From a virus: a DNA stretch of 24,012 nt. Position numbers and translations under genes: made by a program. Below the pieces are notes generated by a model. It was not told the DNA's origin. It worked only from the letters and a program-made list of their open reading frames with translations, and did no database searches. The stretch lies in the IMG/VR virus record IMGVR_UViG_3300017708_002310, positions 1 through 24,012 of that record; one strand, given 5' to 3'. Of this stretch, positions 2,040-23,990 are shown in pieces (position 1 is the first letter of the stretch; the number at the start of each line of letters is the position of its first letter).

Positions 2040-2756
2040 ATGCCTTTACCAAAGATTGCTACACCAACTTATGAGTTGGTGATACCTTCTACTAAGAAGA
2101 AAATTAAGTATAGACCATTTTTAGTTAAAGAAGAAAAGGTTTTGATCATCGCTATGGAAAGCGAAGATACAAAACAAATTGCTGGTGCAGTTAAAGATGT
2201 AATTAAGAACTGCATTATCACTCGCGGAGTCAAAGTAGAACAACTTTCTACTTTTGATATTGAATATTTGTTCCTCAACATTCGTGGTAAGTCTGTTGGT
2301 GAAGAAGTGGAAGTTCTTGTAACTTGTCCTGATGATGGAACTACAAAAGTTCCTACTGTAATTGATTTGGATTCTATTCAAATTCAACATGATGAAGAAC
2401 ATTCAAGAGATATTAAACTTGATGATCAATTGATTCTCAGGATGAGATATCCTTCAATGAATGAGTTTATTCATAACAACTTCGTCGTTGCTGATGCCGG
2501 TGTTGAAGATACTTTTGGTATCATTATGTCTTGCATTGAGCAGATTTATAATGAAGAAGAGTCATGGTCTGCTGCAGACTGTACTGAAAAAGAACTGAAA
2601 GAGTTTATTGAACAATTAAACTCTAAACAATTCAAAGAGATTGAAACTTTCTTTGCTACAATGCCTAAACTTTCTCATACTGTTGTAGTCAAGAATCCTA
2701 ATACGGGAGTAGATAATGAGATTGTACTTGAGGGATTAGCAAGTTTTTTCGGGTGA
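2040..2756 (+). CDS. gp26: Baseplate hub assembly protein gp26
   Basis: The N-terminus (LPKIATPTYELVIPSTKKKI, then KYRPFLVKEEKVLIIAMESED) and the middle (LSTFDIEYLFLNIRGKSVGE) are the signature of the T4 gp26 family. That family acts in assembly of the central baseplate hub and, by position and size, resembles the tail-assembly chaperones of other phages. It is 238 residues against 208 in T4. The later part (RMRYPSMNEFI, CIEQIYN, FIEQLNSKQFKEIETFFATM) is helical and acidic. The gene ends in a T TTT TTC heptamer, one Gly codon, then TGA, with a strong stem just beyond, so a fraction of ribosomes may shift -1 and continue into the next ORF (separate entry). It probably has its own late promoter at 2007. 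The ATG at 2040 has no strong purine-rich leader. Confidence 0.9.
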   Translation: MPLPKIATPTYELVIPSTKKKIKYRPFLVKEEKVLIIAMESEDTKQIAGAVKDVIKNCIITRGVKVEQLSTFDIEYLFLNIRGKSVGEEVEVLVTCPDDGTTKVPTVIDLDSIQIQHDEEHSRDIKLDDQLILRMRYPSMNEFIHNNFVVADAGVEDTFGIIMSCIEQIYNEEESWSAADCTEKELKEFIEQLNSKQFKEIETFFATMPKLSHTVVVKNPNTGVDNEIVLEGLASFFG

Positions 2757-2786
2757 GTATGGCTCATACTGATCTTGAGTCATACT
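2731..2786 (+). other. Putative programmed -1 ribosomal frameshift site fusing gp26 to the next ORF
   Basis: Three elements are visible in order. First, Shine-Dalgarno-like AGGGA (2731-2735) ends 8 bases before the heptamer. Second, T TTT TTC occupies 2744-2750, with TTT and TTC as the zero-frame codons, so both tRNAs can re-pair after a -1 slip. Third, five bases later an 11-bp stem (AGTATGGCTCA at 2756-2766 with TGAGTCATACT at 2776-2786, one G-U pair) closes a 9-base loop. The gp26 stop is at 2754-2756, one codon past the heptamer. The next ORF is exactly in the -1 frame. The shifted product would be 237 gp26 residues plus 61 new ones, 298 in all. The arrangement matches E. coli dnaX in layout and lambda G/G-T in biological setting. 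No experiment is implied. Confidence 0.7.
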
Positions 2787-2935
2787 TCCGAATTAATTTT
2801 GCCTTGATGCAACATCATAAATATAGCTTGACAGAACTAGAAAATATGATACCTTGGGAGAAAGAAATTTACCGTGCTTTCCTCCAACAGTATATTGAAG
2901 AAGAAAACCTAAAGGCACAACAGCAGAATGGTTGA
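2753..2935 (+). CDS. Small tail-assembly partner, likely -1 frameshift extension of gp26 (position of gp51)
   Basis: The 60-codon ORF overlaps the gp26 stop as GTGA. Its product is helical and charged: DLESYFRINFALMQHHKYSL, then TELENMIPWEKEIYRAFLQQ and an acidic end. The L-x-E-L-x-x-M-x-P-W-E-K pattern recalls the short T parts of G/T tail-assembly chaperones. In T4 gene 51 (hub assembly catalyst, 249 residues) follows 26, but this is far shorter and I see no clear gp51 likeness. GTG at 2753 has no good ribosome binding site; an in-frame ATG at 2759 has only a too-close GGGTGAG. This favours expression by -1 frameshifting from gp26, though coupled re-initiation at the overlap would also work. 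It overlaps the next gene by 8 bases. Confidence 0.75.
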   Translation: MSMAHTDLESYFRINFALMQHHKYSLTELENMIPWEKEIYRAFLQQYIEEENLKAQQQNG

Positions 2936-4403
2936 GATTTCCCCAATATTTGGTAGAGGACCAAGAATGTCTGCCGCTGCTTATACAGGCAGAGCGGTTG
3001 CTCCTGCCGCTGCGGAGGATGCTGCTGAATCTAAAGCACTTATCACCAAGAATTCATTACAACTTGGTATTGTATCATCACAAATACAAAATATGACTGC
3101 ACAAATGCAGTCTTTAGTAGGTTCTCTTACTGTTATTGCTACAAATCTTGCTACATCACAGGCACTTCAACAAAGGCAAGATAATCAGGCTATTGAGTTA
3201 GAAAATAAATTAGCACAACAAAAACTTAGAGAAGGAAAAGAAAGTTTAATTGAGAAAAGGATACAATCAGCAGCATTAGCACCTGCACAGAAGATTGCAA
3301 ATAAAGCACAATTCACACTTGGAAGACTTGGAGATTTCTTTATATCAATTCTTGGTGGATGGTTATTGAATCAGGGTGTTCAGACTTTGAAAGCATTGAG
3401 TGAAGGAAATGGAGATAAGTTAAAAGAAATTAGAAATAATGTTCTTAAAAATCTTGCTATTATTGCTGGGATATTTGTTGGAATAAAATTAGCAATCGGT
3501 GTTATCCTAGGAACATTCTCAGTTCTTGGTGTAAAACTATTAGCAGTTGCGGCAGTTGGATTGCTTACAAAACCTGGACAACAGTTGTTGGGATTTATTA
3601 TTGATGCTGCTAAAGCAGCAGCAAATTACTTATCGGAAAAACTTGGTCTTCCATCACCATTTAAACCAGCAGATCCCAATGGAGGAGACGGAAATAATGA
3701 TCCTCCTATAAGTAATGTAGAAGGAGATGATCCACCTCCTAAAGTTGGTGCTGGAAGCACTGAAGGATCTAATGGTAATCAAGACAATATAGAACAACCA
3801 GAGACTAAGAATCAATGGTGGGACCTTCCGGATGAGTTCCCAAATCCTGGAGAAGTCATTGGTGATGAGGATAATGTTGGTGGAGATACTCTAAAATCTA
3901 TTGAGTCTATCAAAGGATCATTTAACACTGCTGAAAGTATTATTAAGGCAATGGGTGGAGATGACTCAAAATCTGATCGCCCTGCAACAAAGAGAAAAAT
4001 GCAGACTGAAACCAAAACCACATTTGATATGGGTTTTGGTGAAATTGACTTATCAAAACCAATGGGTTCTGAAAAAGATCCAGTAGGTAAAAAGGTAACA
4101 GATCCAGAAACTTTAGAATACATTAGACAGGAACAGTATATTGGTAAGTATGGAGAACTTCCACCTGGAATGCTTTCTTCAACATCTGCAAGGAAAGATA
4201 TAGCAAAAAGAGTTTCTAAACCACCAGAAGAACCTGGTGTAACTGTTGTTCCAATGCCTGTTTCTGCTGGTGGTGGGACACCATCTCAACCAGCACCTGT
4301 TTCTAGTGGACCAATTGGTGGTGTTGAGATGTATTCTACCAGTAATGATGATAATATGTACACCTTTGGTGCTATGTCCAACTATAATGTGGTAGGGGTC
4401 TGA
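2928..4403 (+). CDS. Tail structural protein with hydrophobic helices, tape-measure candidate
   Basis: The 491-residue product has an Ala-rich start, a coiled-coil-like Gln/Glu/Lys-rich stretch (residues about 40-130), then LGRLGDFFISILGGWLLNQG (131-150) and two further hydrophobic segments to about residue 230 (LAIIAGIFVGIKLAIGVILG; LLAVAAVGLLTKPGQQLLGF). A Pro/Gly/Asp-rich disordered tail follows. Coiled coil followed by membrane-like helices is the pattern of tape-measure and membrane-inserting tail proteins. It lies right after the gp26-type chaperone, where tape measures usually sit; T4 gp29 is 590 residues. No direct gp29 likeness is visible, so this is an inference. ATG 2928 has only a distant AAAGG. 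ATG 2967 (residue 14) has AGAGGA six bases upstream and may be the true start. The end overlaps the next gene by one base (TGATG). Confidence 0.75.
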   Translation: MVEISPIFGRGPRMSAAAYTGRAVAPAAAEDAAESKALITKNSLQLGIVSSQIQNMTAQMQSLVGSLTVIATNLATSQALQQRQDNQAIELENKLAQQKLREGKESLIEKRIQSAALAPAQKIANKAQFTLGRLGDFFISILGGWLLNQGVQTLKALSEGNGDKLKEIRNNVLKNLAIIAGIFVGIKLAIGVILGTFSVLGVKLLAVAAVGLLTKPGQQLLGFIIDAAKAAANYLSEKLGLPSPFKPADPNGGDGNNDPPISNVEGDDPPPKVGAGSTEGSNGNQDNIEQPETKNQWWDLPDEFPNPGEVIGDEDNVGGDTLKSIESIKGSFNTAESIIKAMGGDDSKSDRPATKRKMQTETKTTFDMGFGEIDLSKPMGSEKDPVGKKVTDPETLEYIRQEQYIGKYGELPPGMLSSTSARKDIAKRVSKPPEEPGVTVVPMPVSAGGGTPSQPAPVSSGPIGGVEMYSTSNDDNMYTFGAMSNYNVVGV

Positions 4404-6268
4404 TGGCGAAGATAAAAACATCACTACTTAAAAATAGCGGCAGCATTGAAGGAATTCAAAGTTCCATCAACGCTTTTGGTACCAGTCTTCGTGCTGCTAA
4501 TAGCACTTCATCCACTATTATACGCAATTTAAATGATGGTAATAAGTTAAAAAAAGATGCCATATTGAGAAGGCGTCAACTATTTGGAAAACGAAGAGAG
4601 GCGGTTAGGAGAAGAGAGCAGGAAGATTTAATTGAAGCAGGTAGAGTTGGAGGAATTTTAAGAAGAACATCTAAAGTCATTGGAAGTAGCACTAAAGGAT
4701 TCCTTGGAAGAATTATGGACTTCCTTGGAACAATTTTAGTAGGATGGATTGTTACTAACCTTCCAGTTATTATTGATGCAGTTCAAGACTTAATCACAAG
4801 AATACAACAAGCAGCAGGTATTCTTAAGAATTGGTTTGAAGGTGTACAAAATTTCTTTGTTGGATTTACTTCCAATCTTGGTGATATTGCTACTAGACTG
4901 ATGAGTTTTGATTTATTTGGTCAAAAGATTGAAATTGATAAAGCATCAGATAAGATCACAAATGGAGTTCGGAGATTTGAGCAAGATTTCAGAAAAATGA
5001 TTCAAGACTTTAGAACTTTTAATCTTTTTGATTATATTAGCGATAACATAAAAAAATTGCTAGGAATTGAGACTGGAAAGAAAAAAGGATCTGCTGACGG
5101 AACTAAAACTGATCAGACTGACAATAATATTCCAACTGAAGGAACATTAAATCAGGAACAAATTGCTAGAGCTGCTAAGGCAGCAGGTTTTCCAGAAGAC
5201 AAAATTGCTACAATGACCGCTATCGCTATGGCGGAATCGTCAGGTGATAGTGGTGCTTTAAATAATAATCCAAATACTGGTGATCTGTCTTACGGTTTAT
5301 GGCAGATCAATATGTTAGGGGACATGGGTCCCGAGAGAAGAAAATTATTTGGTATTAAATCTAATGAGGAATTACTTAATCCTATTACAAATGCTAAGGC
5401 AGCATATAAAATATATGAACTTCAAGGATATGGTGCTTGGTCTGTTTATAAGTCTGGTAAGTATAGGGATTACATGCTATCCGCTAAAAAAGCAGCAACT
5501 AATGCTTTACAAGCATTAAAATCTGAACCAGAGATAACTCAGGTTGATCAGAGTACTAGATATAGAGTTAATGATGATGTTAGCAACATTCTTGGAGAGA
5601 ATGCGATTATAACATCAACTATGGGAGCACAGGAGAGTTTTAGAAATGCTCCTCATAAAGGTATTGATATTGCTTGTGCTGCAGGATTATACATTTCATT
5701 AACAGAAGATGCTGTTGTGGATGGATCTACTTATGATAAAGGATATGGATATGTAGTTGATTTGCACGTTCCTTCTCGTGGTGTTCACCTTAGATTTGCA
5801 CATAATAGTAAGATTATTATTAGAAAGGCAGGAGAAACTGTTCCTGCAGGAACTTCATTTGCAATCACTGGTAGTACAGGAAGGTCTACTGGACCACATA
5901 TTCACTTAGAAGCAAATAGCGTAGCGTGGGTATCAGGAACACCTGATATGGTTCCAGCACCTTATGTTTCTTTGATTCGTTTGTCTAGAGTTCAAATGGA
6001 TAATAAAGTTGATGATGTTCCTACAATTAGTGGAAAAGGTGGAACTTCACTTGACGTTGAAGGAATGGGAAATAGAAGTAATATTGCTAAGGGCGTAACA
6101 CCTGATAAGAAAGGTCAGGTTATTACCGTTCCAATTCCAACTGGTGGTGGTTCAGCACCAACTCCACCACAAAGATCAAAAGGAGGATCAGATTTAAGTA
6201 TTCCCACAGGAACTACGTTAAATAGTTTCATAACAAAAGCACTTCTTAGAGAGTTAGAGTACGTATAA
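4403..6268 (+). CDS. Virion peptidoglycan hydrolase: hydrophobic tail domain + lytic transglycosylase + M23 peptidase
   Basis: The 621-residue product has three parts. Residues 1-240 are a basic helical region with LGRIMDFLGTILVGWIVTNL (101-120), related to the preceding protein. Residues about 255-375 are a lysozyme-fold transglycosylase (SLT type): catalytic Glu278 in AMAESSG, SYGLWQIN near 300, and AYKIYELQGYGAWSVYKSG. Residues about 400-535 are an M23 (LytM-type) endopeptidase: His418 and Asp422 in HKGIDIA, His467 in RFAHNS, and His499-Ile-His501 in GPHIHLE, so zinc ligands and catalytic histidines are all present. It should cut both glycan strands and stem peptides of the host wall during injection, standing in for the lysozyme domain missing from the gp5-like protein at 7557. 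The C-terminus is Gly/Pro-rich. AGGGG four bases before the ATG serves as ribosome binding site. It may also contribute to tail-length determination. Confidence 0.88.
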   Translation: MAKIKTSLLKNSGSIEGIQSSINAFGTSLRAANSTSSTIIRNLNDGNKLKKDAILRRRQLFGKRREAVRRREQEDLIEAGRVGGILRRTSKVIGSSTKGFLGRIMDFLGTILVGWIVTNLPVIIDAVQDLITRIQQAAGILKNWFEGVQNFFVGFTSNLGDIATRLMSFDLFGQKIEIDKASDKITNGVRRFEQDFRKMIQDFRTFNLFDYISDNIKKLLGIETGKKKGSADGTKTDQTDNNIPTEGTLNQEQIARAAKAAGFPEDKIATMTAIAMAESSGDSGALNNNPNTGDLSYGLWQINMLGDMGPERRKLFGIKSNEELLNPITNAKAAYKIYELQGYGAWSVYKSGKYRDYMLSAKKAATNALQALKSEPEITQVDQSTRYRVNDDVSNILGENAIITSTMGAQESFRNAPHKGIDIACAAGLYISLTEDAVVDGSTYDKGYGYVVDLHVPSRGVHLRFAHNSKIIIRKAGETVPAGTSFAITGSTGRSTGPHIHLEANSVAWVSGTPDMVPAPYVSLIRLSRVQMDNKVDDVPTISGKGGTSLDVEGMGNRSNIAKGVTPDKKGQVITVPIPTGGGSAPTPPQRSKGGSDLSIPTGTTLNSFITKALLRELEYV

Positions 6269-10720: not shown

Positions 10721-13700
10721 ATGGATTTTAATTTTGGAAAAACCAATTTTGAGCATACTTTTGCTGCTAAAGTATATTTTTATGATGAGATTCAGGCAAA
10801 GGGTGGTGCAATATTTGAAGAAGATGTAATTATTGAAAAAGATCTAATTGTTAAAGGTCTTTTTGACGTTAAGAATCTTTTAGTAAAAAATAGACTTGAT
10901 GTTGGTGTAGGTGGAACTGTACTTACAGCAGATGCTACTACAGAAACAGTTGGTATAGGAACAACAGCACCAGTAGAGAAATTTCAAATATTATCTGGAG
11001 ATAATAGTTTTGTAGTTACTGGTCTAGGTACTGTTGGTATAGGAACCACAAATCCTGTAAATTTAACTGATGATGAACAATTAAAACTTGATGTTGCTGG
11101 ACTTACTATCACCGAAGATCTTTTAGTAAAAAGAAGTTTTGATGTTGGTATAGGTGGAACATTATTCACAGCAGATACTAGAACAGATAAGGTTGGTATA
11201 GGAACAACAGCACCAGTAGAGAAAGTTCAGATTCTTTCTGGAGATAATAGTATTGTAGTTACTGATCAGGGAGTAGTTGGTATTGGAACAACAACTCCAG
11301 CAGATTTTGCTAATGATGGTTCAATAAAGTTAGATATTAATGGAAGTGTTTCTATTCAGGAAGAAATTTATGACTCTAGAAATTTAAGAGGTTTTTCTGG
11401 TGATTTCTTAAGTAAGGATGAAAATGGTATAACTTGGGTAAGCCTTGAACCTGCTTTCCAAGAAGGTATTTTCCTACAAGATGAGGGTGTTTATGTACCA
11501 ATTCCAGGTCAAGGTGGTGTTGTTGGTGCTGGACAATCATTCTCAATTTTAAATTTTGTACAAAAAAATAGTCTTGGAAAAGGAACTGATACTCTTGTTC
11601 CGACTGCTAGAGATCCACAGACAGTTACTGGACTTGCAACCATATTCACTAATGATCTCTGGGGATTTAATGGTTCTGGTGATGATGCACCAATTTATAG
11701 AGATACTAGAGTTGGAGTCAAACAAAGTAATCCACAGTTTGATTTAGATGTAAACGGAACTTTAAATGTTGATGGATTAGCAACATTTAATGACCCATTT
11801 GATGCTACAAGTTCAGCGAATGGATCTGTTCATGTAGATGGTGGTGTTGGAATTGTTAAAAAACTCTTTGTCGGTAATGATACTAAAGTAGAATCTAGTA
11901 CTGGTGCAACTGCATCTAATGCTGTAGCAGCATTGCAAGTTGTTGGTGGCGCTGCAATTGGTGAAAAACTCTTTGTCGGTAATGATACTAAGGTAGAATC
12001 TAGTACTGGTGCAACTGCATCAAATACTACAGCAGCATTACAAGTCGTTGGCGGTGCCGCAATTGGTGAGAAACTTTTTGTTGGTAATGATACTAAGGTA
12101 GAATCTACCACTGGTGCAACTGCATCAAATGCTGCTGCAGCATTACAAGTCGTTGGTGGTGTTGCAATTGGTGAAAAACTCTTTGTTGGCAGTGATACTA
12201 AAGTAGAATCTACCACTGGTGCAACTGCATCAAATACTACAGCAGCATTACAAGTCGTTGGTGGCGCTGCTATTGGTGAGAAACTTTTTGTTGGCAGTGA
12301 TACTAAAGTAGAATCTACTACTGATGCAACTGCATCCAATGCTGCGGCAGCACTACAAGTAGTTGGTGGTGTTGCTATCGGAAAGAAACTTTTTGTTGGT
12401 CAAGAGACTAAGTTAGAAAATACATTAGAACTTGAGAATTCAATAATTGATATAAATCAACAAACTGGAGTTGATGGGAAAGATTATCGTTTATCATCTG
12501 TTGGTGCTGGTGTATCTTGGAGACCATCGGGTGTTGAAACAAAGAAAACTATTTGGGTTTCAAAAAGTGGTGATGATACAAATAGTGGATTATTAGAAGG
12601 TGATGCTAAAGCAACGGTTGGTGGCGCAGCAGCAATATCTCAACCTGGAGATACAATTAAGATTCGTCCTGGAAGATATGTTGAGAATAATCCAATTGGT
12701 CTTCAAAGAGATGTATCAATTACAGGTGAGGATTTAAGACTGGTTACTATTGAACCACAAAATACAAATTTAGATGTCTTTTGGGTTAGAAGAGGATGTC
12801 TCATTGAAAATTTAAACTTTGCTGGTGAAACTGTTGGTGTTACTCACACTGGTGCGGGTGCAGTTGCATTCCCAATAACTGGAGTGACTGCAAATAGTGG
12901 ATATACTGTTGCTGGACCAGCAGACGAAGGTCCAACACAAAGATGGAGGTCTCCATATATTCGCAACTGTACCAACTTCATGACAGAAAGTATTGGTATG
13001 AGAATTGATGGAAGTGATGCAATATCATTATCAGATCCTGGTGCAGACTTAAAATCAATGGTCTGCGATTCCTTTACTCAGTATAATGAAGCGGGGATTG
13101 GAGTATCTTTGACCAACAATGCATATGCTCAGTTAGTTTCTATCTTTACAATTAATAATGATATTGCAATCTACGCCGATACTGGAGCACAATGTGACCT
13201 TACAAATTCCAACTCATCATTTGGTAATTTTGGATTAGTTGCCGTTGGTCTTGGTTCAACACAATTTACAGGTAAAGTAAATGCTGGCGTTATTCCTGGA
13301 GATAATTCTGATGTAGTTGTTGGTAAGGAAGTTAATGATTTAAATAACGAAAACAGAAGACCATTTGATGGGCAAGCATTATACTTTAAAATTGATTTAG
13401 GAAATTATCCCGACGCGGAGGGTACAGGAAGAATTGATTCTCCGCTTCAAGAACTTTCAAGTATTTCAGTTATTGGTTCTCAAGGAGGATTTTCTCCTAC
13501 ATCTCCACCATCAGTTATTATTAGAGATTTTGATGGAACTCTTGATCCAAAGGGACCACAAGGTATTATTGCAGAGGCAAGTGCTACTGTTGATGAAAAT
13601 GGAATTTTAACTGAAATTGATGTTATCAATTCTGGAAGAAACTATCTATCCACACAAAATATTGTGGTAGATATAGATGGTAACATTGGACTTGCAACTG

Positions 13701-14107
13701 CAGTTATGGAACCAATTTATTTTACAATCTCTGAGGCAACAGAGAATATATCTGGAATAACCACAATGACGTTTAATGAATTTGTTCCTTATGAACTGTT
13801 TGAGAATGATCCTTTTACCTTGCAAAGAATTAGTCGTATTCTAACCAGTTCACATTCTTTTGAATACGTCGGTTCGGGTACCAGTATAAATACATCACTA
13901 CCTTTCCAAGGTTCTATTCCAATAAAAGAGAATGAGGTTGTTGTTAGTAAGGGGGCACAAATTCCATTCACTTCAACAGATCAAAAAGGAAATTTTGATA
14001 TTGGTGCGGGAATTCAAGTTGATCAAACTACATCTACAGTTAGAGGAAGAGATTTTAGTAAGGCAATACAGGCAGAGGTTACACCACTTATACTTGCGTT
14101 GAGATAA
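10721..14107 (+). CDS. Modular tail fibre protein with tandem repeats and pectate-lyase-like beta-helix
   Basis: The 1128-residue product starts MDFNFGKTNFEHTFAAKVYF. Residues 53-214 are two copies of an 81-residue unit (LLVK, VGIGTTAPVEK, QILSGDNS). Near residue 222 lies the module YDSRNLRGFSGDFLSKDENG, also present in the 2174-residue fibre. Residues 381-555 are five near-identical 35-residue repeats. Residues about 610-870 form a right-handed beta-helix of pectate-lyase type (IWVSKSGDDTNSG, ISQPGDTIKIRPGRYVENNP, CLIENLNFAG). After this come Gly-rich beta modules and the C-terminus (TVRGRDFSKAIQAEVTPLIL). It is likely a trimeric fibre or baseplate-attached spike binding host surface glycans; enzyme activity cannot be claimed. 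It starts 2 bases after the previous stop and has no clear ribosome binding site, so it probably depends on coupling. Confidence 0.85.
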   Translation: MDFNFGKTNFEHTFAAKVYFYDEIQAKGGAIFEEDVIIEKDLIVKGLFDVKNLLVKNRLDVGVGGTVLTADATTETVGIGTTAPVEKFQILSGDNSFVVTGLGTVGIGTTNPVNLTDDEQLKLDVAGLTITEDLLVKRSFDVGIGGTLFTADTRTDKVGIGTTAPVEKVQILSGDNSIVVTDQGVVGIGTTTPADFANDGSIKLDINGSVSIQEEIYDSRNLRGFSGDFLSKDENGITWVSLEPAFQEGIFLQDEGVYVPIPGQGGVVGAGQSFSILNFVQKNSLGKGTDTLVPTARDPQTVTGLATIFTNDLWGFNGSGDDAPIYRDTRVGVKQSNPQFDLDVNGTLNVDGLATFNDPFDATSSANGSVHVDGGVGIVKKLFVGNDTKVESSTGATASNAVAALQVVGGAAIGEKLFVGNDTKVESSTGATASNTTAALQVVGGAAIGEKLFVGNDTKVESTTGATASNAAAALQVVGGVAIGEKLFVGSDTKVESTTGATASNTTAALQVVGGAAIGEKLFVGSDTKVESTTDATASNAAAALQVVGGVAIGKKLFVGQETKLENTLELENSIIDINQQTGVDGKDYRLSSVGAGVSWRPSGVETKKTIWVSKSGDDTNSGLLEGDAKATVGGAAAISQPGDTIKIRPGRYVENNPIGLQRDVSITGEDLRLVTIEPQNTNLDVFWVRRGCLIENLNFAGETVGVTHTGAGAVAFPITGVTANSGYTVAGPADEGPTQRWRSPYIRNCTNFMTESIGMRIDGSDAISLSDPGADLKSMVCDSFTQYNEAGIGVSLTNNAYAQLVSIFTINNDIAIYADTGAQCDLTNSNSSFGNFGLVAVGLGSTQFTGKVNAGVIPGDNSDVVVGKEVNDLNNENRRPFDGQALYFKIDLGNYPDAEGTGRIDSPLQELSSISVIGSQGGFSPTSPPSVIIRDFDGTLDPKGPQGIIAEASATVDENGILTEIDVINSGRNYLSTQNIVVDIDGNIGLATAVMEPIYFTISEATENISGITTMTFNEFVPYELFENDPFTLQRISRILTSSHSFEYVGSGTSINTSLPFQGSIPIKENEVVVSKGAQIPFTSTDQKGNFDIGAGIQVDQTTSTVRGRDFSKAIQAEVTPLILALR
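10877..11362 (+). repeat. Two tandem 243-bp units in the fibre gene
   Basis: The segment beginning CTT-TTA-GTA-AAA at 10877 recurs at 11120, exactly 243 bases (81 codons) later. The stretch encoding VGIGTTAPVEK is nearly identical in DNA, while other parts have diverged to roughly two thirds by eye. The phase is preserved, so the duplication lengthens the fibre by one unit. Confidence 0.75.
11861..12385 (+). repeat. Five tandem 105-bp repeats (35 codons each)
   Basis: Units start with AAA-CT(C/T)-TTT at 11861, 11966, 12071, 12176 and 12281 with no length variation. Each encodes KLFVGxDTKVESxTxATASN followed by xxAALQVVGGxAIGx. A degenerate half unit precedes (VDGGVGIVK) and another follows (KLFVGQETKLEN). 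Differences are few (GND or GSD, SSTG or STTG, AVAA/TTAA/AAAA), showing recent duplication or gene conversion. Confidence 0.95.
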
Positions 14108-15098: not shown

Positions 15099-18000
15099 AT
15101 GTCCAAATATATTTCAGGTCGCTATAAAAAAACTCCACAATCGGGATTAACTTCCGATAGGTATAGATATTTGTCTCCAGGTGATGCAGAACCAAATCTT
15201 GGAGATACTCCCACTGTTCAAGGTTCTACAAACATACCACCAGGACAACAATATATTGTTGTTAGTCTTATTGACAGACCTGGAGAAAGATTTTGGATTC
15301 CAAATCAGGGTGGTATTATTCCTGGATCTATTAGTGTATTTGATGAAGACGGACTTGTTGGAGGTTTAAGTAGCACAACACAACTAAATTTTGAAGGTAA
15401 TGCAATTGTTGCAGAAGGGATTAAATTACCACAACCAGGCGTTGCAGTAACAATCACAGTTGCACCTCCAGGAAATAATAATTCTGTATTATTTAAAAAT
15501 AATGATGATTTTGCTACAGATAGTAGATTTACTTTTGATGGTGGATTATTTACTGCTGGAGATAGGATTACTGTAGGCACTGGTGGAACAGTAATTACAA
15601 CCACTCTAGGTGGATTGGTGGGTATTGGAACTACAATTCCTACTCAAGAATTGCATTTAGATGGTGATTTTAGAATCACAGGAACGATTTATGATTCTAC
15701 AAATCAACCAGGCACTCCTGGAGATCTATTAGTTAAGTCAGAAGTAGGTGATCTTATATGGATTAGACCACAATCAATTATTTCTGGTGCTGGTGGAACC
15801 ATAGGTCAAATTCAGTTTCATAGTGCTGCTGGTCTTGTAGATGGTGCTGATAATTTTTATTATGATTTTAATAATAATCGTGTCGGAATAGGAAGTACAG
15901 TTCCAACACAATTACTTGATGTTCTTGGAGTATCTACCTTCAGTGGTGGAGTTTTTGTTGACAGTTTAACTGCAACTGAAAACTCAACATTTGAAAAGAA
16001 TTTGGATGTTGATCAAAAACTAACAGTAGATGGTTTAGCGGATTTAGATGAACTATATGTTGCAGGAATTGCAACTTTTGATAATAATATTGAAGCTAAA
16101 AAAGATTTAGATGTAGATGGTCATACTGAACTTGATAATTTAGGCGTATCTGGTATAGCAACTTTTAGTAATGAATTAAAAGTTGACGCTACAGGAACAT
16201 TAAATGTAATTGGTGATGGTTTAGGTCAAGATGTAATACTTGCTAGCGCAGGTGGTATTACAACAACTGGTGGAGATGCCTATATTGGTGGTGATTTATA
16301 CATTAAAGATGATTTAGTTTTTGATAACTTAACAGCAAATACTGGTACATTTAATGAAAGTTTAAAAGTTTCGGGTATTCTTACAGCAACTTCATTTGCC
16401 GATATTGGTGAGGTAAGAATTACTTCTAATATCATCAGATCTACTGGAGATGGTGATAACTTAGTTTTACAGTCTGATGATGGTATTATACAATCCAATG
16501 ATGATGTTTATATAAATTCAACTACTGAATCTGATGATAAAGATACTGGTGCTCTAGTCGTTAATGGTGGTGTTGGTATTGAGAATAATTTAAATGTTGG
16601 TGGTGCAGTATCATTCACTGGACCTTCTATTGGTGTCGCAGTAACACTTGCTGGTGCAGGTGGTATCACAACCACTGGTGGGGACCTTTATGTTGGTGGT
16701 GATTTATATGTTCAGGATGACCTTGTTTTTGATGATTTAACAGCAGATGAAGGAACATTTAATGCATTATTCCTTGGTGATGATGAAAAAATCAACTTTG
16801 GTGATAGTCCAGAAGGAGCAAATGATTTACAAATATATCATACAGCAGATTTAGGGCAACCAGAAGAGCAAAAGGGAGCTACAGGACAAGGTACAGTAGG
16901 AACTGGTATAACAGTTGCAAATGGAGGGGCAAGTATAATTGAGGAGACAGGTGAAGGTCCTTTAATCTTAAAGACAAATGGTGGTGGAAGTCAAAATGGT
17001 GCGCTTAACTTTTATGATAATAATTGGAGACCTCTGGCGAAATATCGTGCTGGTGGTAACACAGAATTTTTCTTTCAGGGTTATCACAGGTTAATTACAA
17101 CATTATATGGTACCGAAATATACAGAGACCTAGTTGTATTAGATCAAGGTAGTCACACTGCTTCTGTTGGTATTGGAACTGCTAATCCAACAGAAGCATT
17201 GGAAGTTAAAGGTAATGCAATTCCCAATATTGATGTTACTTATAATTTAGGATCTCCTACTAAGAGATGGAATAATGTTTATGCAAGCACATTCAATGGT
17301 CAGTTTCAAGGAACTGCTGATACTGCAAATAAGTTAACAACACCTAGAACATTTACTTTAGGTGAAGGTACTAATGATGATATTGTTGCAGTAGGAAAAA
17401 CTTTTGATGGAACTTCTAACGTAGGATTTGCTCTTACATTAACAACTACTGGTGTAACACAAGGTACTTATGGTTCTGAAACTAAAGTTGGAACATTTAC
17501 TGTTGATAGTAAAGGCAGAGTAACATCAGCATCTGAAGTAAATATTGATTTTGGTAATGCTACTGTAGATAAAGCAAATAAGTTAACAACACCTAGAACA
17601 TTTACTTTAGGTGAAGGTACTAATGATGATATTATTGCTATTGGAAAAACCTTTGATGGAACTGAAAATGTAGGATTTGCTCTTACATTAAAAGACGTTG
17701 GTCCTGGAGCAGGAGATTATGGTGGAGAAAATAAATTAATATCCTTAGAGTTAGATGATAAAGGAAGAGTTACTGGAGTAACAAGTACTAGTATTGATTT
17801 TGGTATTGCAACTGTTGCTACTGCCAATTCATTAACAAACTCAAGAAACATAGAAGCAACAGGTGATATTTCATGGAATGTTAACTTTAAAGGTCATGAA
17901 GATGTAACTGCTGCAGCAACATTAGCATCTATACCAAATCTTGTTGCAGGAACTGTTGGTTCTTCAACTAAAGTTGGTGTCGTTACTTTTGATACTAAAG

Positions 18001-21000
18001 GTAGAATAACAGCAGCATCCAATGTAAATATTGATTTTGATAATGCTACTGTAGGTAAAGCAGGATATGCAGATACTGCAGGTATAGCAACTAACCTGAA
18101 GGGTGGTCAAGCATATCAAATTCCTTATCAAAGTGCTGCTGATACGACACAGTTTATTCCTAATGGAACTACAAGTGGTCAATTACTACAGTATAATGAA
18201 AATTCAGCACCATCTTGGGTAAATGTAGGAGAATTATCTGCAGGAATAGCAGAAACTGCTAACAATCTTGCAAATGGTGCAGCAGGAAGTATACCATATC
18301 AAGATGGTCCTGGAAGTACGGTATTCCTTGCAGAACCTAATGCAGGTAATTATGTTCTTACTTACGATAATATAAATGAAGCACCAGAGTGGAAAGATAT
18401 ATCCACTTTTGATGCCGTTGGATATACAATAGAGGCGGCAGATGATGGTAACAATGCTAAGATTATAATAACTGACGGTGGTACAGGAATTTCTTCCATT
18501 ACTGTTACTGCTGGTTCTAATATTACTATTGACCCTGCAGATTCAACTGGATTTACTATTGCTGCGGTTAATGGTGCTGGAATTGGTATTGCTGCTAGTG
18601 CTAGTAATATATTAAATGTTAATAATGGTCTAATTGGTGGTGTTAATGATAATAGTGGTGAGGATAAAATTGTTTTCTATGATGAAAGCGAAGAGAAATT
18701 AACTTATTTAACTGTAGGATCTGGATTAACGATTACTGATACTTCTATTAGTGTAGATAGTGATATTGCCTTAGATAAAATTTCTGAAGGAAACTCAAAA
18801 GCAGAAATAATTGATACTGCAACAGAATCTAAATTCACCGTAGAAATTGATGCTGCCGAGAAATTTTCTGTTGATATTGGTGGTCCAAAAATACATAGAC
18901 AAGATAATTCTAATGAAGGTGGATCTATAGTACTCAATAGAGCAGCAGATGATGTTGCTGCTTTTGAACTTGATGTTTATGGATCATCAAGTTCTGATTC
19001 TGGTAGATTTAGAATTATAGATTCTACTGGTGGTGGAGAGAGATTTACGATTGGACCTGCTGGACAAATTGGTCTTAGTGGTGCAAATTATGGTTCATCA
19101 GGACAGGTACTGACTTCTAATGGTGCTTCAAGTGCTCCTACATGGGAAAATGCTTCTAGTATTGGTGCTGGAGCCACAGATAAGATTTCTGAAGGAGATT
19201 CAAAAGCAGAAATTGTAGACACTAATGGTAATGGGCACTTTTTAGTAGAGACAGAAGCAACAGAAAGACTTCGTATAACTTCCGATGGTAATGTTGGTAT
19301 AGGTTCTACACAACCAACAGTAGAACTTGACATTAATGGGAAGGTTGCTCTCGGAAGTTCTGTTTATGATTCAAATGGTAGTACCGGAACTGGGGGACAG
19401 GTATTGTCTAGTATCCCTGGTATAGGTGTTTCTTGGACAGATCAGACTGGTGGTGGTAGTGGATCTGGATCGTCTAAGGTTGCATTGTTATTTGAACAAA
19501 AATCTATAAGTAATAGTGGTGGTGGTTATAACGCTGGGAATTGGGTTGTCAGAGAATTAAATACGGAAATTGATCCTCAAAATTTCGTTGATTTTAATCC
19601 AAGCGGTGACTCTTGGTCATTAGAAGCAGGAACTTATAGGATAAAATGGAGTGCCCCAATGTATAGGGTTAATGGGCATATATCCATATTATTTTATTCT
19701 ACTGATAGTACTTTTAATAATAATAGTTTTACGGGAAATGTCACTGTTAGTGGAAGTAGTGAATTTTCGGACAGTACTAGAAATCCAGGTATACAAACTA
19801 GATCTTTTGGAGATACTATAGTTACAATATCTCAGACAACTTACTTTAAAATCCTAAGCAGGGGCGGTACTACAAACAATGTAGGAGGATTGGGATTAGG
19901 TGTTCCATCAGGTCAAGCGGATGAAATTTATACACAAGTATACCTAGAAGATTTATCTGCTTCTGGTGGAGGAGGTGGAACTGGGACTTTAACGGATGTA
20001 GATGTAAAACAATATTCAGATAGTAATACACCAAGAACAGAATATGGATGTAGTAATCCTATTGAAGTAACAGTTGCTGCTGGAATTGCAACCATTGGAA
20101 TTGGGACTACAAGTAATGCATATGGAAAGCGTTATATTGGACCCACAGAACCAACGGGAGATATTTGTGATGGTGATATTTGGTATGATACAAGTATCGG
20201 TACTGGATCTGGATTATTTAGTGCAGACCCAGTAGGAACTATTATTGCTTGGTCTGGTACAACATCAAACATTCCAAGTGGATATCAACTTTGTGATGGT
20301 AGTGTTGCACTATCAACAACACTTCAAAATATTGTAGGAACTAATGTACCTGACTTAACAGATAGGTTCATCGTTGGTGCTAATAATATTAGTGGAACAG
20401 GATCATATCCTGGTGTTGGTATAGGTTCTACTGGTGGTAGTTCTGATGCCATAGTTGTTGAACATAATCACAGTTACAGTAACTTTTCAGATCCAGGTGA
20501 TCACACCCACTCTTATGATGATTACTCTAGAGGAGGAACTGAGGACACGATTGATACTAACAATTACAATATAGGTGATCGTCCAAGAACGACTGGTGGT
20601 AGTGGTTCACATACACACAGTTTCGATATTGATAACCAGGGAGTATCTGGAACTAATAAAAACCTCCCACCATATTATGCACTATTCTATATTATTAAGC
20701 ATAGTTCCTCTACTACTGATGGTTCGGGTGTTTCTGTTAATGTAGTCAATGCACAAAACAGAGGAAGTAGTGGTGGTACACAGTATTTACTTTTTGTTGG
20801 TGGTACTGCTGATCAGCAGGTATACGTATCAACTGATAATGATAAGAGACTTAGATATACTCCATCTTCACAACTCCTAGAAACTGAGCAATTTCTTGCT
20901 CGTAGTAATACTTACATTGGTAATATTACTGCTCCTAGTTCAGCAGGTGTTGGACTAAGTAGTGATATTAGTATTTCTGCAGTTGGTGCTTCTGGTTTGC

Positions 21001-21623
21001 TTACTGAATCTTCACACATCCACAAATGGCTTGCTGGACCAAACCGAGAATATGAAATTAGAATTGGTGGTGCAGGTGTTCTTAGACCTGAGGTGGATAA
21101 TACTCTTACTATTGGTTCTGCTACCAAGAGATGGTCTGTTGTTTATGCTGGTACTGGAAGTATTGATACTTCTGATCAGAGAGAGAAGACTGAAATTGTT
21201 GATAGTATACTAGGTACAGATTTTATCAAGTCTCTAAGACCAGTATCTTATAAGTGGATTTCTGGTGGTAAAGTACCAAGATATGAAGTAGACGAACAGG
21301 GTGAGTTTATCTTAGGTGATGTGGGTCAAAAGATTGTTTGTCGTGATGAAAACGATAGTCCAATCTTTGATGATGTTCCTGGTAGAAGAACTCATTATGG
21401 TTTCATTGCACAGGAAATAAAACAATCTTTAGATGATGCCGGTATCGTTGATGGAGACTTTGGTGGTTGGGTTCTTGGAGATAAGGATGATCCAAATAGT
21501 TCACAATCCTTACGATATAGTGAGATTATTGCTCCACTTACAAAGGCACTTCAAGAAGCATTAGGTAGAATTGAAGAACTTGAAAAATCAGTTCAAGACC
21601 TTCAAAGTTCTAATAATAATTAA
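15099..21623 (+). CDS. Giant tail fibre with phage collar domain and C-terminal S74 self-cleaving chaperone
   Basis: At 2174 residues this is the largest gene here. The N-terminal part has fibre modules (VGIGTTIPTQELHLDGDFRI, YDSTNQPGTPGDLLVKSEVG, two GGITTTGGDxYxGGDLYxxD units). Residues about 740-990 carry three phage-fibre repeats of about 83 residues (NKLTTPRTFTLGEGTNDD, then SKGRVTSASEVNIDF). About 1461-1620 look like a C1q-type jelly roll (WVVRELNTEIDPQNF, LEAGTYRIKWSAPMY). About 1708-1867 are a phage tail collar domain: DPVGTIIAWSG, GYQLCDGS, PDLTDRFIVGA, three His-x-His motifs at 1789, 1802 and 1838 as in metal-binding T4 gp37/gp12 tips, and LPPYYALFYIIKH. From Ser2025 (TSDQREK) to the end is a peptidase S74 intramolecular chaperone (SLRPVSYKWISGG, HYGFIAQEI, LRYSEIIAPLTKAL, terminal coiled coil) that should trimerise, fold the fibre and cut itself off before Ser2025 or close by. 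It is the probable main host-recognition fibre. Confidence 0.92.
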   Translation: MSKYISGRYKKTPQSGLTSDRYRYLSPGDAEPNLGDTPTVQGSTNIPPGQQYIVVSLIDRPGERFWIPNQGGIIPGSISVFDEDGLVGGLSSTTQLNFEGNAIVAEGIKLPQPGVAVTITVAPPGNNNSVLFKNNDDFATDSRFTFDGGLFTAGDRITVGTGGTVITTTLGGLVGIGTTIPTQELHLDGDFRITGTIYDSTNQPGTPGDLLVKSEVGDLIWIRPQSIISGAGGTIGQIQFHSAAGLVDGADNFYYDFNNNRVGIGSTVPTQLLDVLGVSTFSGGVFVDSLTATENSTFEKNLDVDQKLTVDGLADLDELYVAGIATFDNNIEAKKDLDVDGHTELDNLGVSGIATFSNELKVDATGTLNVIGDGLGQDVILASAGGITTTGGDAYIGGDLYIKDDLVFDNLTANTGTFNESLKVSGILTATSFADIGEVRITSNIIRSTGDGDNLVLQSDDGIIQSNDDVYINSTTESDDKDTGALVVNGGVGIENNLNVGGAVSFTGPSIGVAVTLAGAGGITTTGGDLYVGGDLYVQDDLVFDDLTADEGTFNALFLGDDEKINFGDSPEGANDLQIYHTADLGQPEEQKGATGQGTVGTGITVANGGASIIEETGEGPLILKTNGGGSQNGALNFYDNNWRPLAKYRAGGNTEFFFQGYHRLITTLYGTEIYRDLVVLDQGSHTASVGIGTANPTEALEVKGNAIPNIDVTYNLGSPTKRWNNVYASTFNGQFQGTADTANKLTTPRTFTLGEGTNDDIVAVGKTFDGTSNVGFALTLTTTGVTQGTYGSETKVGTFTVDSKGRVTSASEVNIDFGNATVDKANKLTTPRTFTLGEGTNDDIIAIGKTFDGTENVGFALTLKDVGPGAGDYGGENKLISLELDDKGRVTGVTSTSIDFGIATVATANSLTNSRNIEATGDISWNVNFKGHEDVTAAATLASIPNLVAGTVGSSTKVGVVTFDTKGRITAASNVNIDFDNATVGKAGYADTAGIATNLKGGQAYQIPYQSAADTTQFIPNGTTSGQLLQYNENSAPSWVNVGELSAGIAETANNLANGAAGSIPYQDGPGSTVFLAEPNAGNYVLTYDNINEAPEWKDISTFDAVGYTIEAADDGNNAKIIITDGGTGISSITVTAGSNITIDPADSTGFTIAAVNGAGIGIAASASNILNVNNGLIGGVNDNSGEDKIVFYDESEEKLTYLTVGSGLTITDTSISVDSDIALDKISEGNSKAEIIDTATESKFTVEIDAAEKFSVDIGGPKIHRQDNSNEGGSIVLNRAADDVAAFELDVYGSSSSDSGRFRIIDSTGGGERFTIGPAGQIGLSGANYGSSGQVLTSNGASSAPTWENASSIGAGATDKISEGDSKAEIVDTNGNGHFLVETEATERLRITSDGNVGIGSTQPTVELDINGKVALGSSVYDSNGSTGTGGQVLSSIPGIGVSWTDQTGGGSGSGSSKVALLFEQKSISNSGGGYNAGNWVVRELNTEIDPQNFVDFNPSGDSWSLEAGTYRIKWSAPMYRVNGHISILFYSTDSTFNNNSFTGNVTVSGSSEFSDSTRNPGIQTRSFGDTIVTISQTTYFKILSRGGTTNNVGGLGLGVPSGQADEIYTQVYLEDLSASGGGGGTGTLTDVDVKQYSDSNTPRTEYGCSNPIEVTVAAGIATIGIGTTSNAYGKRYIGPTEPTGDICDGDIWYDTSIGTGSGLFSADPVGTIIAWSGTTSNIPSGYQLCDGSVALSTTLQNIVGTNVPDLTDRFIVGANNISGTGSYPGVGIGSTGGSSDAIVVEHNHSYSNFSDPGDHTHSYDDYSRGGTEDTIDTNNYNIGDRPRTTGGSGSHTHSFDIDNQGVSGTNKNLPPYYALFYIIKHSSSTTDGSGVSVNVVNAQNRGSSGGTQYLLFVGGTADQQVYVSTDNDKRLRYTPSSQLLETEQFLARSNTYIGNITAPSSAGVGLSSDISISAVGASGLLTESSHIHKWLAGPNREYEIRIGGAGVLRPEVDNTLTIGSATKRWSVVYAGTGSIDTSDQREKTEIVDSILGTDFIKSLRPVSYKWISGGKVPRYEVDEQGEFILGDVGQKIVCRDENDSPIFDDVPGRRTHYGFIAQEIKQSLDDAGIVDGDFGGWVLGDKDDPNSSQSLRYSEIIAPLTKALQEALGRIEELEKSVQDLQSSNNN
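17325..17633 (+). repeat. Pair of identical 60-bp direct repeats at 83-codon spacing
   Basis: The 60 bases at 17325-17384 recur unchanged at 17574-17633, 249 bases apart and in phase. They encode ANKLTTPRTFTLGEGTNDDI. Flanking sequence is related but diverged, and a third protein-level copy (TANSLTNSRNIEATGDISWN) follows. The identity suggests recent duplication or conversion. Confidence 0.9.
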
Positions 21624-23816: not shown

Positions 23817-23990
23817 ATGGAAGTTTTTACCCTGAAAGAATGGGAAGACAATTTTGATAATCTTATGGAAAGAGTCGAAAACGGTGAAACCATAGGTATT
23901 GTGAGGGAAGATGGTAAGGCAGCAGTGATGATGCCTGCCGATGATGAACTAATACGAATACACACTGAGCAAAATAACGAAGCTCAGTAG
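23817..23990 (+). CDS. Phd/YefM-like antitoxin, orphan within the window
   Basis: This gene of 57 codons starts at ATG 23817 (AAGGG at 23801-23805, 11 bases upstream) and ends at TAG 23988-23990. The product, MEVFTLKEWEDNFDNLMERV then ENGETIGIVREDGKAAVMMP, matches the N-terminal DNA-binding fold of Phd/YefM antitoxins: a short strand, a helix with a Leu-Met-x-x-Val register, Gly-Glu-Thr, a strand, Asp-Gly-Lys, then a Val-Met-Met-Pro strand. The remaining 17 residues (ADDELIRIHTEQNNEAQ) would be the toxin-binding tail, shorter than in most Phd proteins. No toxin gene lies upstream; downstream only 22 bases are visible. It may be a transcriptional autoregulator, a phage-borne antidote to host toxins, or the first half of a pair beyond the edge. 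Confidence 0.65.
   Translation: MEVFTLKEWEDNFDNLMERVENGETIGIVREDGKAAVMMPADDELIRIHTEQNNEAQ

Follow-up and report, generated by a model that had tools for sequence, protein, structure and literature searches.

How does a T4-like phage express a small reading frame that lies in the -1 frame at the end of gp26? In the window, by which we mean the whole stretch of DNA from an ocean virus analysed here (24,012 nucleotides, carrying T4-like tail genes), gp26 is followed by such a frame, a gp51-like ORF that could be a separate gene or could be joined to gp26 by a change of frame. Tail assembly chaperone pairs, lambda G/G-T and many others, are made by frameshifting, and the frameshift signal of E. 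coli dnaX consists of a Shine-Dalgarno (SD)-like element, a slippery heptamer and a downstream hairpin. The frameshifts of lambda G/GT and related tail assembly chaperones were reportedly described by Xu, Hendrix and Duda in 2004. Our comparative analysis indicates, with a probability of about 0.95, that a programmed -1 ribosomal frameshift yields two forms of one tail assembly chaperone from this locus.

The 3' end of gp26 reads GAG GGA TTA GCA AGT TTT TTC GGG TGA, then GT ATG GCT CAT, and the features found around it are collected in Table 1. The T_TTT_TTC heptamer is situated four codons from the gp26 end, and its position relative to the gp26 codons gives the phase required for tandem -1 slippage. 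It is the single occurrence of TTTTTTC on the plus strand of the 24,012-base record and the only T-run heptamer in phase within the ORFs of the window. The SD-like AGGGA (2731-2735) is contained in a GAGGGA upstream. Downstream, a 5-nt spacer leads to a stem with a loop of 9 nt, and the segment 2752-2800 folded alone reaches -18.2 kcal/mol (z = -5.25), a value equalled by 0 of 200 shuffles. Translation in the -1 frame gives FF-RVSM-AHTDLES...; the extension (RVSMAHTDLESYF...) runs through the 60-codon gp51-like ORF to 2935, and the computed fusion comprises 298 aa. An earlier note on this DNA had claimed the SD-like AGGGA, the in-phase T TTT TTC near the gp26 stop, an 11-bp stem 5 bases beyond it and a downstream -1 ORF giving a fusion of about 298 residues, and each of these elements was found in place.

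Table 1 Coordinates of the features at the gp26-gp51 junction of the window
Feature	Position	Strand	Remarks
gp26 ORF, short product, predicted G-like tail assembly chaperone	2040..2756	+	238 aa
SD-like GAGGGA, proposed stimulator	2730..2735	+	8 nt upstream of heptamer
Slippery heptamer T_TTT_TTC	2744..2750	+	phase X_XXY_YYZ
gp26 zero-frame stop TGA	2754..2756	+	TAA or TAG in relatives
Stem, 5' arm, 11-bp, ATG 2759 inside	2756..2766	+	
Stem, 3' arm	2776..2786	+	
-1 frame extension, T-like domain / gp51-like ORF, possible own start ATG 2759	2750..2935	+	

Relatives were gathered from IMG/VR and from named phages, and 255 loci were aligned at the gp26 stop; reduction of the heptamer-bearing loci to distinct ones left 203 distinct junctions. 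The window has an ATG 2 nt past the gp26 stop, and 148 distinct junctions share it at that position. Most of the window's clade retains ATG 2759, so that a separate gp51 could be produced there as well. Both processes might then operate together, frameshifting producing the fusion and reinitiation producing free gp51 in the ATG-bearing clades, with the stem tuning both, which would add to the frameshift explanation. The ATG is indeed retained through a large and diverse class that also keeps the frameshift signal. This invariance is circular, however, since the class is defined by the ATG; Met/Leu at the site may be a mere residue preference, and the T part occurs solely fused in T4-type gp51, with no free form known. 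We regard such a combination as rather unlikely.

Much less probable is a gp51 made purely as a separate gene, by termination at TGA 2754 and reinitiation at GTG 2753 or ATG 2759. Besides the ATG shared by the window and the 148 junctions, this reading could call on the GGGTGA before ATG 2759, which pairs with the anti-SD sequence in the window (-3.8 kcal/mol), and on the TAATG overlaps of Vibrio phages that carry no heptamer. Nevertheless, the anti-SD pairing is not conserved (median +0.6 over the 148 junctions), so that the earlier statement that the small ORF lacks a good ribosome binding site is correct only in part. The ATG is moreover located inside the stem, and reinitiation leaves the invariant wobble bases of the heptamer, described below, unexplained.

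It also fails for relatives that possess no usual start codon at all. In 39 of the 255 loci, no ATG, GTG or TTG appears up to 8 nt after the first base of the stop codon, and in 27 of those 39 the first such codon comes no earlier than +38, within the conserved domain or past it; related loci enter these counts separately, and starts of the ATT or CTG type may exist among them. Relatives without a start include the phages S-RIM2, ACG-2014a, ACG-2014b, ACG-2014d, S-CAM8, S-CAM4, Citrobacter Ci1, Aeromonas AS-szw and Cronobacter S13, many of the contigs L179-L197, L269 and L274, as well as L136, whose closest relatives carry the ATG. Because many relatives thus have no usual start codon, pure reinitiation was rejected as a general mechanism. 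In at least 27 loci, and in further named phages, no ATG, GTG or TTG precedes the conserved domain or falls within most of it, and the downstream ORF is there plausibly translated solely as part of a trans-frame fusion. The frameshift reading would also explain why gp51 is missing or shortened in many deposited cyanophage annotations: those of ACG-2014b, ACG-2014d, S-CAM8 and S-CAM4 lack it, and those of S-RIM2 and ACG-2014a place its start at an internal codon.

The heptamer itself is strongly conserved. TTTTTTC is found in 250 of the 255 loci, TTTTTTT or TTTTTTG in 3, and none in 2, namely T4, whose partner gene is elsewhere, and Vibrio phage K355. Every one of the 203 distinct heptamer-bearing junctions has the heptamer in phase and an open -1 frame, whose ORF measures 59-70 codons from the heptamer. 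The stop codon, by comparison, is free to vary (TAG 88, TAA 67, TGA 48). Parsimony counts over 220 distinct gp26 genes, which allow for relatedness, show that the synonymous sites of the heptamer are held constant to a degree that protein constraint by far cannot account for. The codon preceding the two Phe codons is AGT, TCT, GCT, AAT, GAT or GGT, with 44 changes at its first two bases and zero at the third. The two Phe wobble sites change 0 and 2 times against a median of 52 for gp26 wobble sites; the first Phe codon is TTT in 220 of 220 genes and the second TTC in 218, the exceptions, TTT and TTG, retaining the run of six T. The conservation of heptamer and phase beyond protein constraint, which the earlier note had proposed as a check, is thus borne out by 0, 0 and 2 wobble changes against 52. 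A chance heptamer retained by the FF dipeptide alone, for which the near invariance of FF in gp26 might speak, is ruled out by this test and has a negligible probability, as nine other conserved Phe columns switch between TTT and TTC 17-60 times each and the preceding codon changes its amino acid yet always ends in T.

Several lineages deviate from this arrangement. The same note had named, as evidence that would count against it, relatives with an intact gp26 and partner but no slippery heptamer in phase. Four Vibrio phages, K355 (L178), K364 (L282), D493 (L283) and YC (L284), are of this kind, with a TAATG overlap between the two genes. Coupling may have replaced slippage in these four. In Vibrio schizo-T4 phages, for example phi-ST2 and VS2, T_TTT_TTC occurs together with TAATG. 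Variant heptamers are found in Caulobacter phage Cr30 (TTTTTTT) and Rhizobium phage RL2RES (TTTTTTG).

The SD-like element is maintained across the junctions. At its site GAG is used 164 times and GAA 32 times, versus 1541 GAG and 3716 GAA elsewhere in gp26, in raw counts that, like those of the start codons and unlike the parsimony counts, ignore relatedness. Of the 32 sites with GAA, 23 have GGG as the following codon (8.7 expected; p 6e-9 by Fisher's test, uncorrected for relatedness).

The stem has a narrower distribution. It is retained in about 114 of the 148 junctions of the ATG class, where 79% of its cells are paired, compared with 30-43% for slid versions. Furthermore, where the 5' arm is of the GTATGG type, the 3' arm uses almost uniform codons for Ser (TCA 109/113) and Tyr (TAC 110/113); with other 5' arms the usage is mixed. 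Fold strength follows the same division, with a median z of -4.0 in the ATG class and -1.1 in the other classes. Only four pairs show two-sided changes, and slid controls score equally or higher; covariation is consequently not claimed for the stem, and as it is modest, the paired-cell fraction and the synonymous-site test provide the better evidence. Because the stem is weak or absent in the classes without that ATG, a universal stem was rejected: the heptamer is common to clades beyond the window's, whereas the stem is peculiar to that one clade, where it may stimulate slippage. The conservation that the earlier note expected of the stem accordingly holds for that clade and does not extend to the others.

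The protein domains point in the same direction as the nucleotide signals. The gp26 of the window matches PF12322 (T4_baseplate, E 8.8e-74) and phrog_150 (E 6e-81), and the -1 extension has its match (E 1.6e-26) in phrog_634, the family to which T4 gp51 belongs, annotated as 'baseplate hub assembly catalyst'. Against phrog_150, the 298-aa fusion aligns over residues 1-284 in one stretch with 304 bits, compared with 272.9 for gp26 alone. T4 gp26 and T4 gp51 both belong to PF12322 (E 8.8e-64 and 7.7e-55) and find each other by BLASTP at 2e-5. T4 gp51 is a natural fusion: PF12322 covers its residues 1-201, and past about residue 203 it continues in frame with the C-terminal domain of the small ORF. 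This domain make-up and the phrog_150 match of the fusion indicate that the two genes of T4 correspond to one gene plus a slip in the window.

Structural comparison gave a weaker indication. An AF2 model of the window gp26 (pLDDT 87.8) had as its top Foldseek match in the PDB the HK97 tail assembly chaperone 2ob9, a weak match with E 0.9; a sequence search of gp26 against the PDB gave no match. VIA-align placed 3fgx (Z 8.0), 2ob9 (7.9) and 3klu (7.1) ahead of the next chain at 4.7; we take 3fgx and 3klu to be tail chaperone relatives. These matches have middling Z, poor Foldseek E values (about 1) and coverage limited to the N-terminal ~85-90 residues, and as Z-scores of 7.1-8.0 lie within a range that a common arrangement can also give, gp26 is a candidate for the TAC fold. 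That the top match is a tail chaperone is suggestive. The T4 gp51 family was modelled too, and with this model VIA-align found neither a chain exceeding Z 5.0 nor a tail chaperone, a result that says little because Foldseek picked the candidates.

Collectively, the phase, the frozen wobble bases and the missing start codons uphold the proposed frameshift joining gp26 to the small ORF. The window phage would in this way encode both a short form and a C-terminally extended one. We propose that the majority of ribosomes terminate at 2754 and release the G-like gp26 of 238 aa, and that a fraction slips on T_TTT_TTC and continues in the -1 frame to give the GT-like gp26-gp51 fusion of 298 aa. The upstream SD-like element and, in the window's clade, also the stem that begins 5 nt downstream would promote this slippage. 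If the lambda model applies, gp26 alone would coat the tape-measure protein, and the fusion would recruit tail-tube subunits via its C-terminal domain. As regards origin, we suggest tentatively, and with more doubt than confidence, that the frameshift is ancestral in T4-like phages, that duplication and fusion took its place in T4 and its close relatives, and that in the window's clade the stem has the further role of hiding the extension's ATG, the extension then being made solely as a fusion, while the related clades have neither ATG nor stem.

A comparison with known systems clarifies what is shared. The locus resembles lambda G/GT in its slippery heptamer and in the position of the gene after the tail tube gene and before long ORFs; it differs in family (PF12322, that of T4 gp26), in the greater length of gp26 (238 aa), and in being accompanied by an SD-like element and, within a single clade, by a strong stem. 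As T4 gp51 consists of a gp26-like part plus the C-terminal domain, and the best, though weak, fold match of gp26 is a tail chaperone, the window system is best understood, by analogy, as working like lambda G/GT. The proposed tie to the G/GT chaperones thus draws support from the in-frame fusion in T4 gp51 and, more weakly, from the predicted gp26 fold. T4 gp26 and gp51 contain the same two domains, gp51 having the make-up of the fusion product, but in T4 each form, short or long, has a gene of its own and there is no heptamer, whereas the window would use one gene and a frameshift. With E. coli dnaX the locus shares the three parts and a hairpin at similar spacing; the dnaX heptamer is A_AAA_AAG rather than T_TTT_TTC, and the stem of the window is not conserved outside one clade. 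Pseudomonas phage Adele and the Vandenendeviridae likewise show a poly-T slippery site at the end of TAC-N, a -1 frame open in all alleles and a downstream ORF misannotated as a separate gene, but they represent another phage family and use a GTTTTT motif (PMC12846349).

T4 gp26 and gp51 are described as hub assembly chaperones, gp51 being absent from the particle (PMC3004832), and a 2016 review treats T4 as an exception to the conserved G-T frameshift (PMC5009743). According to the summaries in PMC10885494 and PMC12846349, Vladimirov, Gautam and Davidson (2022, Virology 566:9) identified the T4-like tail assembly chaperones; the first adds that, in place of frameshifting, some T4-like phages have a short gene plus a long fused one, and the second, citing the same work, mentions poly-T slippery sequences in T4-like TAC-N genes. 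From these summaries, a published account of frameshifting in some T4-like phages very probably exists already, and the tie of T4-like gp26/gp51 to the chaperones, which the earlier note put forward, is not new, both summaries citing the 2022 paper for it. The scale of the test, the loss of start codons and the clade-specific stem may be new here. Our results give strong comparative evidence that the tail chaperone pair, which T4 makes from two genes, is made by frameshifting in T4-like cyanobacterial phages and in several phages of Vibrio, Aeromonas, Cronobacter, Citrobacter, Rhizobium and Caulobacter. This sets up a clean comparison of frameshifting and gene duplication in fixing a protein ratio.

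The gene neighbourhood is that of a tail module. Profile matches identify the ORF upstream of gp26 as the tail tube protein, and the ORFs 2928-4403 and 4403-6268, in the place of the tape measure, give weak tape-measure matches; the region 2928-6268 is probably the tape-measure region, split in two in the window. The annotated order in Caulobacter phage Cr30 is gp26-like, gp51, hypothetical, tape measure. Both window ORFs contain hydrophobic stretches, the second with SLT_3 lysozyme and M23 peptidase domains, and S-RIM2 has one long ORF annotated 'hypothetical' at the same place. Just upstream of the tail tube gene, a small minus-strand ORF (750-1085) has an I-HmuI NUMOD-like domain (E 8.9e-5, below cut-off) and is perhaps a homing-endonuclease remnant. 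Another minus-strand ORF (311-790) encodes a TnsA-like endonuclease N-terminal domain (PF08722, E 2.4e-25) and occupies the place of gp4, head completion, in P-SSM2. Near the end of the record, a 57-aa ORF (23817-23990) resembles the Phd/YefM antitoxin (PF02604, E 4.7e-6, slightly below the Pfam cut-off), with no toxin partner seen before the record ends. The 1128-aa structural ORF at 10721-14107 includes several near-identical tandem repeats at about 11830-12339 (LFVGNDTKVES.TGATASN..AALQVVGG.AIGEK), over which the opposite strand is open, and the 2174-aa fibre-like ORF at 15099-21623 ends in a C-terminal Peptidase_S74 (chaperone of endosialidase) domain.
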